Assembly (NCBI RefSeq): GCF_003240565.2
Contig: NZ_CP117255.1
Coordinates: 2,170,001-2,234,000, forward strand
DNA from: Rhizobium tumorigenes
Lineage (GTDB): Bacteria; Pseudomonadota; Alphaproteobacteria; Rhizobiales; Rhizobiaceae
Direction of reading: 5' to 3'
DNA: 64,000 nucleotides
Part shown: one piece after another, positions 25,178 through 34,531 of the stretch
Layout: the number at the start of each line of letters is the position of its first letter
Numbering within the stretch: position 1 is the stretch's first letter
Program-made: the position numbers and the translations under genes
Notes under the pieces: generated by a model
What the model was told of the DNA's origin: nothing
The model's database searches: none
The model's input: only the letters and a program-made list of their open reading frames with translations

Positions 25178-26491
25178 ATGGCTGATTTGCGCAACAATTT
25201 CGTCGGCATCAAATCCCCCAACCCGTTTTGGCTGGCCTCTGCGCCACCGACGGACAAGGCCTATAATGTCAACCGCGCCTTCGAGGCCGGCTGGGGTGGA
25301 GTCGTCTGGAAGACACTCGGCGAAGACGGCCCACCGGTGGTCAACGTCAACGGACCGCGCTACGGCGCCATCTGGGGCGCCGACCGCCGCCTGCTCGGGC
25401 TCAACAACATCGAACTCATCACAGACCGCGACCTCCATACCAACCTGCGGGAGATGAAGGAGATCAAGATGAAATGGCCGGATCGGGCGCTGATCGCCTC
25501 GATCATGGTTCCCTGCGAGGAGCAGGCCTGGAAGGCGATATTGCCGCTTGTCGAGGAAACCGGCTCCGACGGCATCGAGCTCAACTTCGGCTGTCCGCAC
25601 GGGATGTCGGAGCGCGGCATGGGTGCAGCGGTCGGACAGGTGCCGGAATATATCGAGATGGTCGTTCGCTGGTGCAAGCAGTACACCCGCATGCCGGTCA
25701 TCACCAAGCTGACGCCGAATATCACCGATATCCGCAACCCCGCCCGCGCCGCCAAATCCGGCGGAACCGACGCGGTATCGCTGATCAACACCATCAACTC
25801 CATCGCCTCGGTAGATCTGGACAATTTCGCGCCGAACCCGACTGTCGGCGGCAAGGGCAGCCACGGCGGCTATTGCGGCCCGGCGGTCAAACCGATTGCG
25901 CTCAACATGGTGGCTGAGATCGCCCGCGATCCGCAGACCCACGGCCTGCCGATTTCCGGCATCGGCGGCATTACCACATGGCGCGACGCTGCAGAATTTC
26001 TGGCACTTGGCGCCGGCAACGTCCAGGTCTGCACCGCCGTCATGACCTACGGCTTCAAGATCGTGCAGGAAATGATTACCGGCCTCTCAGACTGGATGGA
26101 CGAAAAGGGCCACCGTACGCTCGACGATGTCATCGGCCGTGCCGTTCCGAATGTCTCCGACTGGCAGTATCTCAACCTCAACTACATCGCCAAGGCCAAG
26201 ATCGATCAGGATGCCTGTATCAAGTGCGGCCGCTGCTACATCGCCTGCGAAGATACCTCCCACCAGGCGATCACCAACATCGTCGATGGCATCAGGCATT
26301 TCGAGGTGAAAAACGAGGAATGCGTTGGCTGCAATCTCTGCGTCAGCGTCTGTCCGGTCGAAAATTGCATCACCATGGAAGAGCTCCCGGCTGGCGCTCT
26401 CGACACGCGGACCGGCAGGATTGTCGACCCGAACTATGCCAACTGGACGACGCATCCAAACAACCCGATGGCACGCCAAGCCGCCGAATAG
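25178..26491 (+). CDS. preA: NAD-dependent dihydropyrimidine dehydrogenase subunit PreA
   Basis: 437 residues. The dihydroorotate-dehydrogenase-like FMN barrel shows NPFWLASAPPTDKAYNVNRA, GIELNFGCPHGMSERGMGAA (with the active-site Cys) and ISGIGGITTWRDAAEFLALG. The C-terminus has two [4Fe-4S] motifs, CIKCGRCYIACED and CVGCNLCVSVCPVENC. With PreT it reduces uracil/thymine using NADH. Later pathway enzymes are encoded at 30821 and 32697, after the phytochrome module. Confidence 0.94.
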   Translation: MADLRNNFVGIKSPNPFWLASAPPTDKAYNVNRAFEAGWGGVVWKTLGEDGPPVVNVNGPRYGAIWGADRRLLGLNNIELITDRDLHTNLREMKEIKMKWPDRALIASIMVPCEEQAWKAILPLVEETGSDGIELNFGCPHGMSERGMGAAVGQVPEYIEMVVRWCKQYTRMPVITKLTPNITDIRNPARAAKSGGTDAVSLINTINSIASVDLDNFAPNPTVGGKGSHGGYCGPAVKPIALNMVAEIARDPQTHGLPISGIGGITTWRDAAEFLALGAGNVQVCTAVMTYGFKIVQEMITGLSDWMDEKGHRTLDDVIGRAVPNVSDWQYLNLNYIAKAKIDQDACIKCGRCYIACEDTSHQAITNIVDGIRHFEVKNEECVGCNLCVSVCPVENCITMEELPAGALDTRTGRIVDPNYANWTTHPNNPMARQAAE

Positions 26492-26754: not shown

Positions 26755-27294
26755 ATGACCTTTCGAAATGCCCTCCGTGCCGGCACTGCCGAGTACCATG
26801 ATGTTGTCGACCATCTGTTTGGTCGCTTCGACATGACTGATCGTGTTCAATATACAGCATTTCTGGCAGGCCACGCGCGTGCCCTGCCCGCAGCCGAGCA
26901 AGCCCTCGAGGCCGCCGGCATTGCCCGCATCTTCCCGGACTGGCCAGAGCGTCGCCGCAGCCATCTCTTGCGCGCCGACATGGCGACACTCGACCTAGTC
27001 ATGCCGCCGCCCGTCGCCATTGTCGCTTTCGCCTCCGACGATGAGGTCTGGGGTGCAGCTTATGTCATCGAAGGTTCGAAATTGGGCGGCGCCATGCTTG
27101 CAAAGCGCGTACCGGGCCATTTCCCATCCGCATATCTTTCTTACCAGGGACCCAAAGGCGCGATGAAAGCGTTTATGGATAGGCTTGATGCCGCGGCACC
27201 CATTGACAGCGATCGCGCGATAGCGGCGGCTAGATCGGTATTTGCCGCCTTCCGGGCCGCAGCCGAACTCGAATTGGAGAAATCCGCCTTTTGA
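26755..27294 (+). CDS. bphO: Bacterial haem oxygenase (BphO type)
   Basis: 179 residues of the biliverdin-producing haem oxygenase family. The proximal haem His is expected in the N-terminal helix (TAEYHDVVDHLFGRFD), and the distal-side helix appears as WGAAYVIEGSKLGGAMLAKR. It opens haem to biliverdin, the phytochrome chromophore. The stop overlaps the start of the bacteriophytochrome gene by 4 bp, so both are made together. It is a different fold from the IsdG-like enzyme at 12138. Confidence 0.9.
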   Translation: MTFRNALRAGTAEYHDVVDHLFGRFDMTDRVQYTAFLAGHARALPAAEQALEAAGIARIFPDWPERRRSHLLRADMATLDLVMPPPVAIVAFASDDEVWGAAYVIEGSKLGGAMLAKRVPGHFPSAYLSYQGPKGAMKAFMDRLDAAAPIDSDRAIAAARSVFAAFRAAAELELEKSAF

Positions 27295-29861
27295 CCGATG
27301 AATTGCAGCGTATCGATCTCACCAATTGCGACCGTGAGCCGATCCACCAGCTCGGCACGATACAACCCTTCGGCTTCCTCCTCGCATTGTCGTCCGACTG
27401 GTTGATTGCACGAGCCTCTGTCAATCTCGGAAAGTTCACCGGCGTCGAACACGAGCAGATCCTAGGCCGCCCGCTGACGGAATTGTTTACGCCGGACGCC
27501 GTGCACACGTTGCGCAACCGGACCGCTGTGATCCGCGGACAGGATACAGTCGAACGCGTTTTCGGCGTCGTGTTGCGTGAAGGCGGCGCCCTCTTCGACA
27601 TCGCCCTGCACATTTCAGACGGACAGATCGTCATCGAGGCTGAGCCATCTCCTGCAGCGGACGAGAGCACTGCGATATCCATACGCAGCATGACCGCACG
27701 CCTCGACCAGACGGACACACAGCAGGCCTTCTTCCGCGAGGGCGCCCGGCAGGCGCGCGCACTGACTGGCTTCGACCGCGTCATGATCTATCGTTTCGAC
27801 GAAACAGGCGCAGGTGAGGTCGTGGCGGAGGCGGCACGATCGGGCATCGGATCATTTCTAGGACTGCACTATCCGGCCTCCGACATTCCAGTGCAGGCGC
27901 GGGCACTCTATCTCCGCAATCTTTTCCGGATCATCTCCGACGTCGATGCTGTTCCCGTGTCGATCGCACCGCAACTCACGGAACACGGGCAACCGCTGGA
28001 TCTTTCAATGTCGGTTCTGCGCTCGGTGTCGCCGGTCCATATCGAATATCTGAAGAATATGGGTGTGGAAGCATCGATGTCGATTTCCATCGTGGTCGAA
28101 GGCGCCCTGTGGGGCTTGTTTGCCTGCCACCACTACAGCCCTCGCCTGCCCTCGCTGGAACGCCGCGCCAATGCCGAGTTGTTCGGACAGATGTTCGCTT
28201 CGCGCCTGGAAAGCCGTGAAAGACGTATCGCCCTCGAATACGAGCGCAAGGCAAAGCAGATCGGCGATCGCCTGCTGACATCCGTTGCCGGCAATACAAG
28301 CTTGCTCGATGACCCAGCTTGGCTGATCGACGCTCTCGCCGATGTCATTCCGGCAGACGGGGTCGGCGTCTGGATCGACGGGCGCATGGCATTGAGCGGC
28401 GCCACCGTCTCGGAAGAGCAGGTTTTGGAACTGAAGTCTCTTCTCAATCGAAATGCGGCAGGGAGGGTCTTTGCGACGGACAGCATTCGCAGCTGGTATC
28501 CCGATTGGGACGAGAGCACGCATGTCTGCGGCCTTTTGGCTATCCCGATTTCCCGCTCTCCGCGCGACTACGTCATCCTTTTCCGTCAAGAGATAATTCG
28601 CTCCGTGCGCTGGGCAGGCGACCCAAACAAACCTGCCGAGTATGGTCCGGGTGGCCTACACCTGTCACCGCGCAAGAGCTTCGAGAGCTGGTCGGAAATG
28701 GTGCGGGGCCACTCCCTCGCCTTCACACCTCCGCAACTGCGTGTCGCCGAGACGATCAGGGTGGCCCTGATCGAGGTCATCCTGCGCCTCTCCGAGGAGG
28801 CAAACGCGGAACGGCGTGCTGCAAGCGAGCGTCAGGAACTGCTGATTGCCGAGCTCAACCACCGTGTCCGAAACATTCTCAGCCTGATCGGCGGGTTGAT
28901 TCGTCACTCGAAATCCGCCGATTTGTCCGTCGATGGCTACATCGAGCAGCTTCAGGGACGTGTGCAATCGCTTGGCCGCGCCCATGACCAGCTGACGCAA
29001 GACCAGTGGGCGCCGGCTTCATTCAGGCAGTTGCTGGAAGCAGAAAGTGCCGCGTATCTCGGCAAGACCTCCGGCCGGCTGGATATCAGCGGCCAGGAGG
29101 TGCTGCTGGACCCGAAGGCCTTCACGACATCGTCGCTGGTCTTCCACGAACTCGTTACCAACAGCGTCAAATACGGCAGCCTTTCGGCTGCAGGCGTTGT
29201 GGCGATCAACTGGGAGCGGAACGCCGAAGGTAATCTGCACATCCAGTGGCGTGAACGCGGCGGCCCTGCCGTGACGACACCCACACGCGTCGGTTTCGGC
29301 TCGACAATCATCCGACGCTCGTTCATCTACGATCTGGACGGAGAGACCGACATCCGCTTTGCCGAAGGCGGACTGGAAGCCGATTTTGTCATTCCGGCGA
29401 AATTCGTAACCTTCGTCAGAGCAGCCGTCCTCACGGCTCCTCAGAAGGAAATGATCGACAGCCAGATTGCCTCGGCGCCGCTCGGCCAGCAACCGCTGGC
29501 CGGAATGTCGGTGCTGCTGGTGGAAGACAATCTGATCATCGCCATGAACGGGGAGGATATTCTGAAAAGCCTCGGCGCTGCGGAGGTCATTGCCGTCCCC
29601 AACGTGTCGCAGGGGCTTGCGGCCATCGAGCAGCAGCCGCTTCAGATGGCGCTGCTGGACGTCAATCTCGGCGTGGAGACGAGCTTTCCCATCGCCGACC
29701 GGTTGATCAGCATGAACATCCCGTTCGGCTTCGTGACCGGCTACGGAGACAGCATTCCCCAGGGCGACAGCTACGCGGACATCTCCGTCTTGCAGAAGCC
29801 CTACACCTGGGAAAGCATCGAGGCCTTCCTGCCGGTTGTCCTCAGGCCGCGCGACGAGTAA
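27291..29861 (+). CDS. bphP: Bacteriophytochrome with HWE histidine kinase and C-terminal receiver (Agp2-like architecture)
   Basis: 856 residues from a TTG overlapping the bphO stop. Order: PAS with the biliverdin-binding Cys13 (TNCDREPIHQLGTIQPFG), GAF with PASDIPVQARALYLRN and the CHHYSP His motif, PHY, then an HWE kinase (IAELNHRVRNILSLIGGL, phospho-His about 524; FHELVTNSVKYG), and a receiver (LLVEDNLIIAMNG, phospho-Asp about 790 in LLDVNLG). The receiver end FGFVTGYGDS...QKPY resembles the FAT GUY receivers linked with alphaproteobacterial stress signalling. It senses red/far-red light in the cytosol. This architecture is that of Agrobacterium Agp2; which form is the dark state cannot be told. 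IQPFG replaces the common IQPHG. Confidence 0.92.
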   Translation: MTDELQRIDLTNCDREPIHQLGTIQPFGFLLALSSDWLIARASVNLGKFTGVEHEQILGRPLTELFTPDAVHTLRNRTAVIRGQDTVERVFGVVLREGGALFDIALHISDGQIVIEAEPSPAADESTAISIRSMTARLDQTDTQQAFFREGARQARALTGFDRVMIYRFDETGAGEVVAEAARSGIGSFLGLHYPASDIPVQARALYLRNLFRIISDVDAVPVSIAPQLTEHGQPLDLSMSVLRSVSPVHIEYLKNMGVEASMSISIVVEGALWGLFACHHYSPRLPSLERRANAELFGQMFASRLESRERRIALEYERKAKQIGDRLLTSVAGNTSLLDDPAWLIDALADVIPADGVGVWIDGRMALSGATVSEEQVLELKSLLNRNAAGRVFATDSIRSWYPDWDESTHVCGLLAIPISRSPRDYVILFRQEIIRSVRWAGDPNKPAEYGPGGLHLSPRKSFESWSEMVRGHSLAFTPPQLRVAETIRVALIEVILRLSEEANAERRAASERQELLIAELNHRVRNILSLIGGLIRHSKSADLSVDGYIEQLQGRVQSLGRAHDQLTQDQWAPASFRQLLEAESAAYLGKTSGRLDISGQEVLLDPKAFTTSSLVFHELVTNSVKYGSLSAAGVVAINWERNAEGNLHIQWRERGGPAVTTPTRVGFGSTIIRRSFIYDLDGETDIRFAEGGLEADFVIPAKFVTFVRAAVLTAPQKEMIDSQIASAPLGQQPLAGMSVLLVEDNLIIAMNGEDILKSLGAAEVIAVPNVSQGLAAIEQQPLQMALLDVNLGVETSFPIADRLISMNIPFGFVTGYGDSIPQGDSYADISVLQKPYTWESIEAFLPVVLRPRDE

Positions 29862-29868
29862 TTGACCG

Positions 29869-30522
29869 TCATTGCGCCTTCTTCTGCGCGATCATCAGCC
29901 CGTTGACGAAAAGCTGCTCGAGATAGCGGGCGGCATCCTCGAACCGGCCCTCGCCGGAACTCGCCTGTCCGAGGACGGCGCGCACCTGGACATCAAAGTC
30001 GGCATAGTGCTGTGTGGTTGACCAGATGGAGAAAATCAGGTGGTAGGGGTCGCATTTGGCGATCTTGCCGGCCTTCGCCCAGGCGCGGATCACAGCCGCC
30101 TTCTCGTCGACAAGGCTCTTGAGTGGCCCCCTCAATTCGTCCTCGACATGCGGTGCACCCTGCAGCATCTCGTTGGCAAACAGCCGGCTCTCGCGCGGAA
30201 AATCCCGGGCCATTTCAAGCTTGCGGCGGATATAGCTGCGGATCTCGCTTTCGGGGTTTCCCTCCGGGTTGAAGACGCGCAGCGGCTCGAGCCAGGTGGA
30301 CAATACGCGGTCGATGAGTGCCCGGTGGATCGCCTCCTTGGTGCGGAAATAATAGAGCAGATTGGGCTTCGACATGCCGGCCACCTCGGCAATCTGGTCG
30401 ATGGTGGAACCGCGAAAACCATGAACTGAAAAGACATCGAGAGCCGCCTCGAGAATGACCTCTTCTTTCACTTCCTGGATGCGGGTGCGACGCTGCGTCT
30501 TCGCCGCTCTGGGGGTCGTCAT
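29869..30522 (-). CDS. rutR: TetR family regulator of pyrimidine catabolism (RutR-like)
   Basis: 217 residues from the ATG at 30522. The DNA-binding domain reads ILEAALDVFSVHGFRGSTID then QIAEVAGMSKPNLLYYFRTK, very close to RutR. The ligand domain contains WSTTQHYADFDVQVRAVLG, typical of RutR proteins that sense uracil or thymine. It is divergent from the hydrolase gene, and a RutR-type palindrome lies between them at 30667. Confidence 0.88.
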   Translation of the reverse strand: MTTPRAAKTQRRTRIQEVKEEVILEAALDVFSVHGFRGSTIDQIAEVAGMSKPNLLYYFRTKEAIHRALIDRVLSTWLEPLRVFNPEGNPESEIRSYIRRKLEMARDFPRESRLFANEMLQGAPHVEDELRGPLKSLVDEKAAVIRAWAKAGKIAKCDPYHLIFSIWSTTQHYADFDVQVRAVLGQASSGEGRFEDAARYLEQLFVNGLMIAQKKAQ

Positions 30523-30666
30523 GTCGATTTCGCTTCTCCTTGAAACCCGCGCAGTTGTCACATGTGCTATGCGCCGGCACCAAATCGGATCGCCCGGGTA
30601 TCTGCCTGTATTTTGTCGCCGCTTTTCGCGATTTTCATCTTGAGCACCGGCGTGGAAGCTGTAATG

Positions 30667-30682
30667 TTTACCAATCGGTCAA
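30667..30682. promoter_or_regulatory. RutR-type operator between rutR and the hydrolase operon
   Basis: TTTACC-AATC-GGTCAA matches the RutR consensus TTGACC-N4-GGTCAA at eleven of twelve half-site bases. It lies about 140 bp before the rutR-divergent hydrolase start and 145 bp from the rutR start, in a 298-bp divergent region without any other gene. Confidence 0.7.
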
Positions 30683-30820: not shown

Positions 30821-32074
30821 ATGGTGGCCGCACCAGGCGAAAACATGCGTATCAATGGCGACCGCCTTTGGGATGCGCTGATGGATATGGCGAAGGTCGG
30901 ACCAGGCATTGCCGGCGGCAACAACCGCCAGACGCTGACCGATTCCGATGGCGAAGGCCGCCATCTCTTCCAGCAATGGTGCGAAGCAGCTGGAATGACT
31001 GTCAGCGTAGACCGCATGGGCACGATGTTTGCCACCCGGCCAGGCACCGATCCGGACGCACTTCCGGTCTATGTCGGCTCGCATCTCGACACCCAACCGA
31101 CCGGCGGCAAATACGACGGCGTTCTCGGCGTGTTGGCTGGTCTCGAAGTCGTGCGCACCATGAACGACCTCGGCATCAGGACAAAGCATCCAATCGTCGT
31201 CACCAACTGGGCGAACGAAGAAGGCGCCCGCTTTGCTCCGGCGATGCTGGCCTCTGGCGTTTTTGCCGGCGTCCACGATCTCGACTACGCCTACAGCCGC
31301 AAGGATCCGGACGGAAAGACCTATGGCGACGAACTGAAGCGCATTGGATGGCTCGGCGCCGAGGAAGTCGGCGCCCGCAAGATGCACGCCTACTTCGAAT
31401 ACCATATTGAGCAAGGCCCGATCCTCGAAGCCGAAAAAAAGGCGATCGGCGTTGTCACCCACTGTCAGGGCCTGTGGTGGCTGGAGATCACCCTCACTGG
31501 CCGCGAAGCCCATACGGGCTCGACACCGATGGCGCTGCGCGTCAACGCCGGCCTTGCCATGTCGCGAATCATCGAGATGGTCCAGGCCGTCGCGATGGAA
31601 AGCCAGCCCGGCGCTGTCGGCGGCATCGGCCAGGTATTCTTCTCTCCCAATTCCCGGAACGTGCTGCCCGGCAAGGTCGTCTTCACCGTCGACATCCGCA
31701 CACCGGATCTGGCCAAACTCGACCGGATGCGCGAAAGGATCGAGGCCGAGGCGGCAGGCATCGCCGAAGCCCTCGGCGTCGGCTGCTCGATAGAGGCCGT
31801 CGGTCATTTCGATCCGGTCACCTTCGACGCGACACTGGTATCGGCCGTCCGCAACGCCGCCGAAAGGCTTGGCCTCAGCCACATGAACATCATCTCTGGC
31901 GCCGGCCACGACGCCTGCTGGGCCGCAAAGGTGGCCCCGGCCACGATGATCATGTGCCCCTGCGTCGGCGGCCTCAGCCACAACGAGGCGGAAGAGATTT
32001 CCAAGGAATGGGCATCAGCCGGCGCCGACGTACTGTTCCACGCGGTGGTGGAGACGGCGGGGATCGTGGAGTAG
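30821..32074 (+). CDS. Zn-dependent hydrolase (beta-ureidopropionase / N-carbamoyl amino acid amidohydrolase family)
   Basis: 417 residues from the ATG at 30821, with GAGG eight bases upstream. It is an M20-type amidohydrolase: metal ligands in VGSHLDTQPTGGKYDGVLG (His, Asp), TNWANEEGARFAPAM (Glu-Glu), the EYHIEQGPILE block, and the C-terminal His in GGLSHNEAEE. In context it performs the last step of reductive pyrimidine catabolism, splitting N-carbamoyl-beta-alanine into beta-alanine, CO2 and ammonia. Related enzymes act on allantoate or hydantoin products, so substrate assignment rests on the neighbours (preTA, dihydropyrimidinase, RutR). Confidence 0.88.
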   Translation: MVAAPGENMRINGDRLWDALMDMAKVGPGIAGGNNRQTLTDSDGEGRHLFQQWCEAAGMTVSVDRMGTMFATRPGTDPDALPVYVGSHLDTQPTGGKYDGVLGVLAGLEVVRTMNDLGIRTKHPIVVTNWANEEGARFAPAMLASGVFAGVHDLDYAYSRKDPDGKTYGDELKRIGWLGAEEVGARKMHAYFEYHIEQGPILEAEKKAIGVVTHCQGLWWLEITLTGREAHTGSTPMALRVNAGLAMSRIIEMVQAVAMESQPGAVGGIGQVFFSPNSRNVLPGKVVFTVDIRTPDLAKLDRMRERIEAEAAGIAEALGVGCSIEAVGHFDPVTFDATLVSAVRNAAERLGLSHMNIISGAGHDACWAAKVAPATMIMCPCVGGLSHNEAEEISKEWASAGADVLFHAVVETAGIVE

Positions 32075-32110
32075 AATAGCTCAAGTACCTCGGAGACAGG
32101 GAAACGGACG

Positions 32111-32323
32111 ATGGGAAGGCCTAGAGAGATTTCACCCGAAGAGCGCGCCGAGCTGGTCAGTCAGGGATATCGTCCAGTGGAAATCTGGGTTCCCGATTTG
32201 AGCAATGAGATCTTCAGGAGGCAGGTTCAGAAAGAGATGCAGTCCATTGCGGCAGCGGCCGAGACGGATGATGTCTCCCAATGGACTGTCGCCGTCGGCC
32301 CCACGGATTGGGACAAGCCGTGA
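32111..32323 (+). CDS. MazE-type antitoxin (DUF3018-like)
   Basis: 70 residues. The family look is MGRPREISPEERAELVSQGY, then RPVEIWVPDLSNEIFRRQVQ, a ribbon-helix-helix-like DNA-binding N-terminus, and an acidic C-terminus ending TVAVGPTDWDKP that would thread onto the toxin. It begins 36 bp after the hydrolase stop, and its own stop overlaps the toxin GTG start by 4 bp, the usual antitoxin-toxin coupling. Confidence 0.82.
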   Translation: MGRPREISPEERAELVSQGYRPVEIWVPDLSNEIFRRQVQKEMQSIAAAAETDDVSQWTVAVGPTDWDKP

Positions 32324-32700
32324 AGATAAGTCGAGGAGATGTGGTGGTGGCAGTTTTCCCTGGAGAGCTTGGCAAGCCGCGACCGGCCGTCGTCCTCCAG
32401 GCGAATGAACTCCTCGATATCTACACGACGGTACTCGCCTGTCCTCTTACCACGCATTTGCTCGACGCCCCTCTCCTCCGACCCACGATCGAACCCAGTA
32501 TGGAAAACGGACTTCAGCAGAGGTCTCAAGCCATGGTTGAAAAGATCACGCCGGTGAGGAAGGACGTCATCGGTCAGCTGATCGGCCGTCTGACGGATGA
32601 AGATCTTGCTCGGATCGAAGTAGCTTTGGTTCAGGTCATCGGTCTTCATCACACCATAGCGCCTCCAAGAATAACGCCAGATAGGGAACGAAAGCCATGA
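32320..32700 (+). CDS. MazF/PemK-type toxin endoribonuclease
   Basis: 126 residues from a GTG that overlaps the antitoxin stop. The MazF/PemK fold is recognisable: ISRGDVVVAVFPGELGKPRP at the start (RGDVV and KPRPAVV motifs), CPLTTHLLDAPLLRPTIEPS, and VEKITPVRKDVIGQLIGRLT. MazF toxins cut mRNA at short sequences. The C-terminal 20 residues are a polar tail. Its stop overlaps the ATG of the dihydropyrimidinase gene by 4 bp, which couples a toxin to a metabolic enzyme. Confidence 0.85.
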   Translation: MKISRGDVVVAVFPGELGKPRPAVVLQANELLDIYTTVLACPLTTHLLDAPLLRPTIEPSMENGLQQRSQAMVEKITPVRKDVIGQLIGRLTDEDLARIEVALVQVIGLHHTIAPPRITPDRERKP

Positions 32701-34153: not shown

Positions 34154-34531
34154 GTGCGCGCCCGCCACCTTCTGGTCACCACCATTCTGCTCGTCCCGAC
34201 CTATGCCGATGCCGATGGCCTGGGACTGGCCATCGGCGGCAACTATGGCAGCAAGGAAGGATGCATCTATGCAAAGACCGGAGAATCGAGCGGCGCCGAT
34301 ACATTCCTGCTACTGACGCCGGATGCCGTAACGACGTCCGTTTCCAGTTGCGAGTTCAAGAAGATCGTCAAGACCAGCAGCGACGGATTCACCGTCACGG
34401 CAGCCTGCCAGGCAGAAGGTGAAGACAGCGCTGGAGACGAGAGGATTGATATCATCCGTATCGACAAGAGCAGTTACCGCATCCTTTTCGAGGACGGGAC
34501 AAAATTGGGACCCGTGAAGAAATGTCGGTAA
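34154..34531 (+). CDS. Small secreted protein of unknown function
   Basis: 125 residues from a GTG 2 bp after the hydA stop. The first 20 residues are a signal peptide (RHLLVTTILLVPTYADA). The mature part has four Cys (EGCIYA, SSCEFK, AACQAE, KKCR), probably two disulphides, and alternating strands. No family recognised. Its last 10 bp overlap the start of the ABC ATPase gene, so it is locked into the transporter operon; a periplasmic role near the transporter is possible but unproven. Confidence 0.6.
   Translation: MRARHLLVTTILLVPTYADADGLGLAIGGNYGSKEGCIYAKTGESSGADTFLLLTPDAVTTSVSSCEFKKIVKTSSDGFTVTAACQAEGEDSAGDERIDIIRIDKSSYRILFEDGTKLGPVKKCR

Follow-up and report, generated by a model that had tools for sequence, protein, structure and literature searches.

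Chromosomal toxin-antitoxin modules are often patchy in distribution and mobile, and their benefit to the host has long been debated. In the relA-mazEF-mazG operon of Escherichia coli, mazEF adjoins a nucleotide-metabolism gene, as does the pair described here, although the E. coli module has an antitoxin of another family and belongs with another pathway. The closest precedent is staphylococcal mazEF-Sa, which, according to the accessible part of the report, is a chromosomal mazEF fixed at one locus in 99.82% of strains, where it precedes the rsbUVW-sigB stress sigma factor operon, is cotranscribed with the downstream genes, and has a phylogeny that follows that of the genomes (PMC5647390). 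Unlike mazEF-Sa, the Rhizobiaceae pair lies in a catabolic operon, has a PF11455 antitoxin, and is patchily present. Thermus thermophilus HB8 also carries a toxin-antitoxin-like pair within a metabolic operon, in that an MNT-HEPN module lies within its lysine biosynthesis operon; the module is absent from strain HB27, a strain specificity presented there as a sign of mobility (PMC2701414), whereas the Rhizobiaceae pair is found in 27 genera. Finally, DUF3018-MazF pairs are known from plasmids, among them Skermanella plasmids and Pseudomonas syringae pPsv48B, for which the available part of the paper gives a putative TA5 pair, PF11455 (DUF3018)-MazF (PMC6354349). These pairs share the toxin family and, where annotated, the antitoxin family with ours but are plasmid borne, with MazF proteins <60% identical to the one studied here. 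A literature search, with subscription papers mostly outside its reach, returned no report of mazEF in a pyrimidine degradation operon and nothing joining mazEF with dihydropyrimidinase; papers on toxin-antitoxin systems and hydantoinase were off subject by title and the start of the abstract, and the available part of PMC3616915 held nothing on mazEF in a pyrimidine operon.

The pair described here lies in Rhizobium tumorigenes (NZ_CP117255.1), in a 64,000-nucleotide stretch of DNA that was analyzed as a whole and is referred to as the window. The features of the locus are as follows.

29869-30561, minus strand: gene for a TetR regulator similar to RutR, in divergent orientation to the operon (PF08362, E = 1.6e-50)
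30667-30682, plus strand: RutR-box-like palindrome TTTACCAATCGGTCAA, a candidate operator with 2 mismatches to the consensus that we take to be that of RutR
30821-32074, plus strand: gene for an amaB-like N-carbamoyl amidohydrolase (NF006769, 688 bits; cutoff, 452)
32075-32110, plus strand: 36-bp gap with the mazE leader
32111-32323, plus strand: mazE-like antitoxin gene, 70 amino acids (PF11455 [DUF3018], E = 2.4e-11)
32320-32700, plus strand: mazF toxin gene with a GTG start codon, 126 amino acids (PF02452 PemK/MazF, E = 3.5e-17, over the cutoff)
32676-32696, plus strand: hydA leader with a Shine-Dalgarno (SD)-like AGGGAA
32697-34151, plus strand: hydA, dihydropyrimidinase, 484 amino acids (TIGR02033, 602 bits; cutoff, 393)

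An initial annotation of this DNA had described a MazE/MazF-type pair joined by two 4-base overlaps into a pyrimidine operon, and its coordinates, the 36-bp gap, and both overlaps proved exact to the base against the sequence and its open reading frames. The mazE stop codon (TGA, 32321-32323) shares 4 bases with the mazF GTG at 32320 (GTGA), and the mazF stop codon (TGA, 32698-32700) shares 4 bases with the hydA ATG at 32697 (ATGA); the hydA leader doubles as coding sequence for the final residues of MazF. The nature of the pair and of the operon was likewise borne out by the PF11455 and PF02452 matches and by hydrolase and dihydropyrimidinase models that scored over their cutoffs, even though NCBIfam models at a threshold of 0.001 gave no match for either the MazE-like or the MazF protein and PADLOC gave no match. 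The hydrolase, which runs from an ATG at 30821 to a TAG ending at 32074 in both the sequence and the open reading frame list, is a probable β-ureidopropionase, and its start region is similar to a Rhizobium etli amaB primer given in the available part of PMC7142369. The RutR-like protein scored 245 bits against TIGR03613 (RutR), under the cutoff of 368. The mazE leader had also been considered as a possible duplicate of the hydA leader, an idea that was abandoned because AGGGAAACGGACG in the window gap is similar to AGGAAACGGAC in the mazE leaders of three other loci (L091, L070, and L071).

We put at roughly 55% the probability that this is an old, locus-bound MazEF of the Rhizobiaceae uracil degradation operon that works as a resident addiction module or guard. 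The arrangement is found again in many related genera and is maintained by selection, so mazEF has probably long resided in the operon instead of having been inserted there by chance. The same conservation makes a chance arrangement of the genes unlikely, and cotranscription with the operon, which the initial annotation had assumed, is probable.

This recurrence is not apparent from the genus. Among genus loci chosen on hydA similarity alone, 29 (the window included) had both the hydrolase gene and hydA in view; 14 had a gap of <250 bp without a recognized gene, 14 had other content, and mazEF was present only in the window. MazF matches were found in 37 of 148 genus genomes, at 43 listed places; the window place matched at 99% identity and the 42 others at 30 to 47%, and neither hydA nor the hydrolase gene lay near any of these 42. 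The genus data suggested a recent one-off insertion, an explanation that was dropped once the family search showed recurrence. When the window MazF was searched against 394 sampled Rhizobiaceae genomes (E <= 1e-10), 85 had matches, the contexts of which were read from loci and fetched regions, with the remainder that had a listed hydA judged by coordinates alone. The order hydrolase-mazF-hydA was found in 51 of the 394, including L159, in which mazF is truncated and mazE is missing; with Neorhizobium sp. SHOUNA12A (L091), which has the same order, this makes 52 rows from 27 genera plus Neorhizobium. One more family genome (G418) has mazEF immediately 5' of hydA, the upstream part lying beyond the fetched stretch, so that mazF lies between the hydrolase gene and hydA or directly 5' of hydA in 52 of 394 genomes (51 plus G418). 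Four further genomes have mazF in the same neighborhood without an adjacent hydA: G237 and G212 carry mazEF 3' of the hydrolase gene with no hydA beside it, in G329 a frame-disturbed mazF, unaccompanied by a mazE match, lies between the hydrolase gene and an ABC gene, and G250 carries mazEF close to an ABC gene. In all, mazF is at the uracil operon locus in 56 of the 85 MazF-matching family genomes, Mycoplana dimorpha DSM 7138 (L092) and G377 being treated as one genome and counted once. Since matches depend on similarity to the window MazF, the family counts are lower bounds.

The slot fetches were steered by MazF and therefore give no estimate of frequency. Among 56 loci picked on hydA alone, with duplicates dropped, only the window scored mazEF; G217 and G377 had been picked in this way too but were left out because they duplicated MazF loci. 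A close hydA is present in 342 of the 394 family genomes, compared with mazF beside it in 52, and mazF was at this locus in none of the 42 other genus places, so the arrangement is dispensable and any addiction leaky. Outside the Rhizobiaceae, none of 28 fetched MazF loci lay beside hydA or the hydrolase gene. A genome-contig search with the window MazF found no relative, and one with P0014 found two named loci; relatives <60% identical to the window MazF sit on 304 plasmid records, and no match was found in the phage records searched.

By sequence, the pair has the marks of a MazEF/PemIK module: a PemK/MazF family toxin, the catalytic Arg and Thr, and a small, overlapping antitoxin gene upstream. 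The catalytic residues of Bacillus subtilis MazF, which we take to be R25 and T48, correspond to R21 and T44 of the window protein, of which the former is invariant and the latter nearly so among 17 sequences; both aligned with the solved MazF structures, which the window MazF also matched in a profile search. A low-confidence model (pLDDT, 61.5) had B. subtilis MazF as its top match (E = 8.6e-06). Furthermore, for close pairs chosen by hand (n = 19, some of them not independent), dN/dS was 0.04 to 0.23 for mazE (15 pairs with a value) and 0.05 to 0.38 for mazF (18 pairs with a value), compared with 0.04 to 0.22 for hydA in the same set. These ratios indicate that mazE and mazF are under purifying selection. 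Some copies at the same locus are decaying: mazF of L159 is truncated with an in-frame stop codon and has no mazE, the mazF start is disturbed in L147, and in L169 the mazF frame is disturbed and mazE is unmatched. Such copies would fit a MazF that is dead or repurposed, having lost RNA cleavage and being kept as a MazE partner or for translational spacing, but given the conserved Arg21 and Thr44 and the low mazF ratios, we consider this very improbable.

The hydrolase-hydA slot is, by gene content, an insertion hotspot in the Rhizobiaceae. Elsewhere it holds genes for DUF559, LysE, class II aldolase, CdiI_3, and GH114 proteins, a 65-amino-acid coiled-coil-like protein, and unknown open reading frames (L009, L010, L020, L021, L028, L029, L031, L094, L095, L098, L103, L105, L113, L117, and L179); ten representatives were run against Pfam, five of them without a match, and the others were classed by eye or by pattern. 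Several of the DUF559-type open reading frames (e.g., L009 and L029) carry a repeat-like sequence at their start (SSALRAPSPRGEKG or a variant of it), which looks as though interspersed repeats had been translated into them. In L122, the slot holds two mazEF pairs separated by a 155-amino-acid open reading frame; by eye, with one of the two in the tree described below, the pairs resemble different branches.

The spacing within the slot bears on two further claims. The overlap of mazE with mazF is 4 nt long in 43 of 50 slot pairs measured and 1 nt long in 5, and mazE starts 29 to 54 nt after the hydrolase stop codon in 40 of 50 slots. Among the same 50 slots, mazF and hydA share 4 nt in 19 cases and 1 nt in 2; mazF ends 3 to 59 nt before hydA in 27 and at a greater distance in 2. 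The initial annotation took the flush junction of the toxin gene with hydA as telling, and this did not hold up, since 19 of 51 mazEF slots have the 4-nt overlap, and so do 17 of 40 whose cargo is unrelated (classes assigned by pattern). We therefore rejected the overlap as evidence of coupling. hydA starts with ATGA in 117 of 140 loci, so an open reading frame that continues into the leader in the corresponding frame meets its stop codon at this point. Nor does hydA appear to need translation of the toxin gene, as had been suggested, because, by a loose pattern, 51 of the 52 slots with mazEF and 86 of the 88 others have an SD-like leader before hydA, and many relatives have hydA without mazF.

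A slot with so many kinds of small cargo, often joined to hydA by the same 4-nt overlap, raises the idea that MazEF is a plain selfish passenger with no functional link to the operon. Repeated independent landings should, however, mix the MazF proteins of the slot with those from elsewhere. In a MazF tree of 135 domain rows and 109 columns, built by a quick method, 56 rows were labeled as locus bound (L091 included, L159 excluded) and 79 as from elsewhere (28 of these from other families). The two labels required only 2 changes on the tree. A tree that constrained the locus-bound MazFs together had a log likelihood 25.8 above that of the free search (AU P = 0.873), and with nine long rows dropped (126 left), the one-clade P value was 0.781. 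With so few columns and a quick method, the data are compatible with, and do not prove, a single clade of 56 locus-bound MazFs apart from the 79 elsewhere. An earlier version of the tree with 7 changes had suggested three independent arrivals of MazEF, which was discarded because five rows had been mislabeled and the corrected labels gave 2 changes with one clade not rejected; these rows were reexamined because of their tree position and relabeled on gene context. The 79 other rows have no operon gene nearby except for one 37% ABC match, and a MazE-like open reading frame accompanies MazF in 66 of them. The locus-bound MazFs thus lack the scattered locations of a mobile or plasmid addiction module. 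This pattern, together with strong purifying selection, makes an unlinked passenger an unlikely explanation of the locus.

Both flanking genes of the window fall among mazEF-bearing lineages, in favor of a locus-bound module. The hydrolase shares a group (support, 98) with five mazEF-bearing rows that come from two genera, and three rows from the window's genus are sisters of that group (support, 88). The window hydA groups with four mazEF-bearing rows and a Shinella locus without mazEF, L031 (support, 95), so that the two flanks point to different mazEF-bearing genera. Distances of MazF and hydA were correlated weakly to moderately (rho = 0.22 overall and 0.44 in clade A), compared with 0.45 and 0.69, respectively, for the hydrolase and hydA, which indicates that exchange occurs. 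These sequence comparisons suggest that the operon, together with the module, has been moved or retained in the form of a mosaic block.

A separate promoter with full termination before hydA had been named in the initial annotation as evidence that would count against its reading, and no such signals stood out here. The one sigma-70-like promoter match, at 32049-32077, is within expectation (2 in the region versus 1.1 expected), no terminator-like site was found between mazE and hydA, and the inverted repeats around the start of the antitoxin gene (32010-32130) are of 6 bp only. Scoring against the assumed RutR consensus gave 6 matches in the window at ≤3 mismatches versus 1.5 expected, one of them the palindrome at the operon head (30667-30682); a second palindrome with 2 mismatches lies within the RutR-like gene itself (30018-30033). 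Upstream of the hydrolase gene, a RutR-box-like site (≤3 mismatches to the same consensus) was found in 11 of 20 distinct genomes, namely, the window, L091, and half (9) of the 18 loci fetched, ~165 to 270 nt 5' of the gene, with 0 to 5 of 300 shuffles being as good, and in the remaining nine genomes no such palindrome above chance was found there. RutR is a TetR regulator of pyrimidine catabolism whose motif changes are taxon specific, according to the accessible part of PMC5343134.

The position of mazEF behind such a site, its conservation, and purifying selection could also mean that it was recruited as a regulatory brake or switch that ties growth to the uracil supply. Once uracil is gone, RutR would shut the operon, MazE would decay first, and MazF would slow translation and clear the operon mRNA. 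By analogy, the staphylococcal module, fixed before and cotranscribed with the sigB operon with mutual effects in the part of the report available (PMC5647390), shows that such recruitment can happen. Many relatives, however, have the hydrolase gene and hydA without mazEF, mazF is retained at the locus even without hydA beside it, and the palindrome was not found in 9 of the 20 genomes; we therefore doubt this explanation. The frequent absence in relatives and the persistence of mazF without an adjacent hydA speak against an obligatory brake and less against a guard. A combined possibility, which we regard as speculative and rather unlikely, is that the MazEF lineage has been domesticated family-wide as both a metabolic checkpoint and an allele guard; transcription of antitoxin and toxin would track uracil through RutR and go together with the β-alanine/coenzyme A supply, and shutoff or loss of the operon would free MazF and slow growth.

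Reductive uracil degradation can supply β-alanine. In R. etli, amaB is a β-ureidopropionase gene, and a mutant requires β-alanine, as stated in the available part of the source (PMC7142369). We searched the window's genome for panD and did not find it; amaB is probably the β-alanine source in this genome. The absence of panD is not specific to mazEF carriers, as first considered, because panD is equally rare without mazEF (3 of 30 noncarriers versus 3 of 50 carriers).

In the old resident guard module that we favor, mazEF would share a transcript with the hydrolase gene and hydA that starts at the operon head under RutR-type control, with MazE made first and MazF translationally coupled to it. 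MazF would act as a sequence-specific mRNA endonuclease restrained by MazE. With the antitoxin gene fixed behind amaB and no panD detected in the genome, cells that lose or replace the operon allele would keep the toxin and be penalized; the module would be tolerated because coexpression keeps MazE in excess. On occasion, mazEF would be lost or replaced by other small genes. A module that many genera carry in the same metabolic operon, and that their relatives lack, offers a natural with/without comparison that could separate a guard from a brake and from a selfish passenger.

Two other genes of the window were noted beside the operon. Between the RutR-like gene and a gene at 25178-26491 that by eye resembles one for dihydropyrimidine dehydrogenase lies a bacteriophytochrome gene with an HWE histidine kinase and a receiver-like domain (27291-29861). 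On the other side, 3' of hydA, a small open reading frame of 125 amino acids without a Pfam match (34154-34531) has counterparts with 33 to 49% identity in several relatives and is still close to mazEF in L090 and L133.
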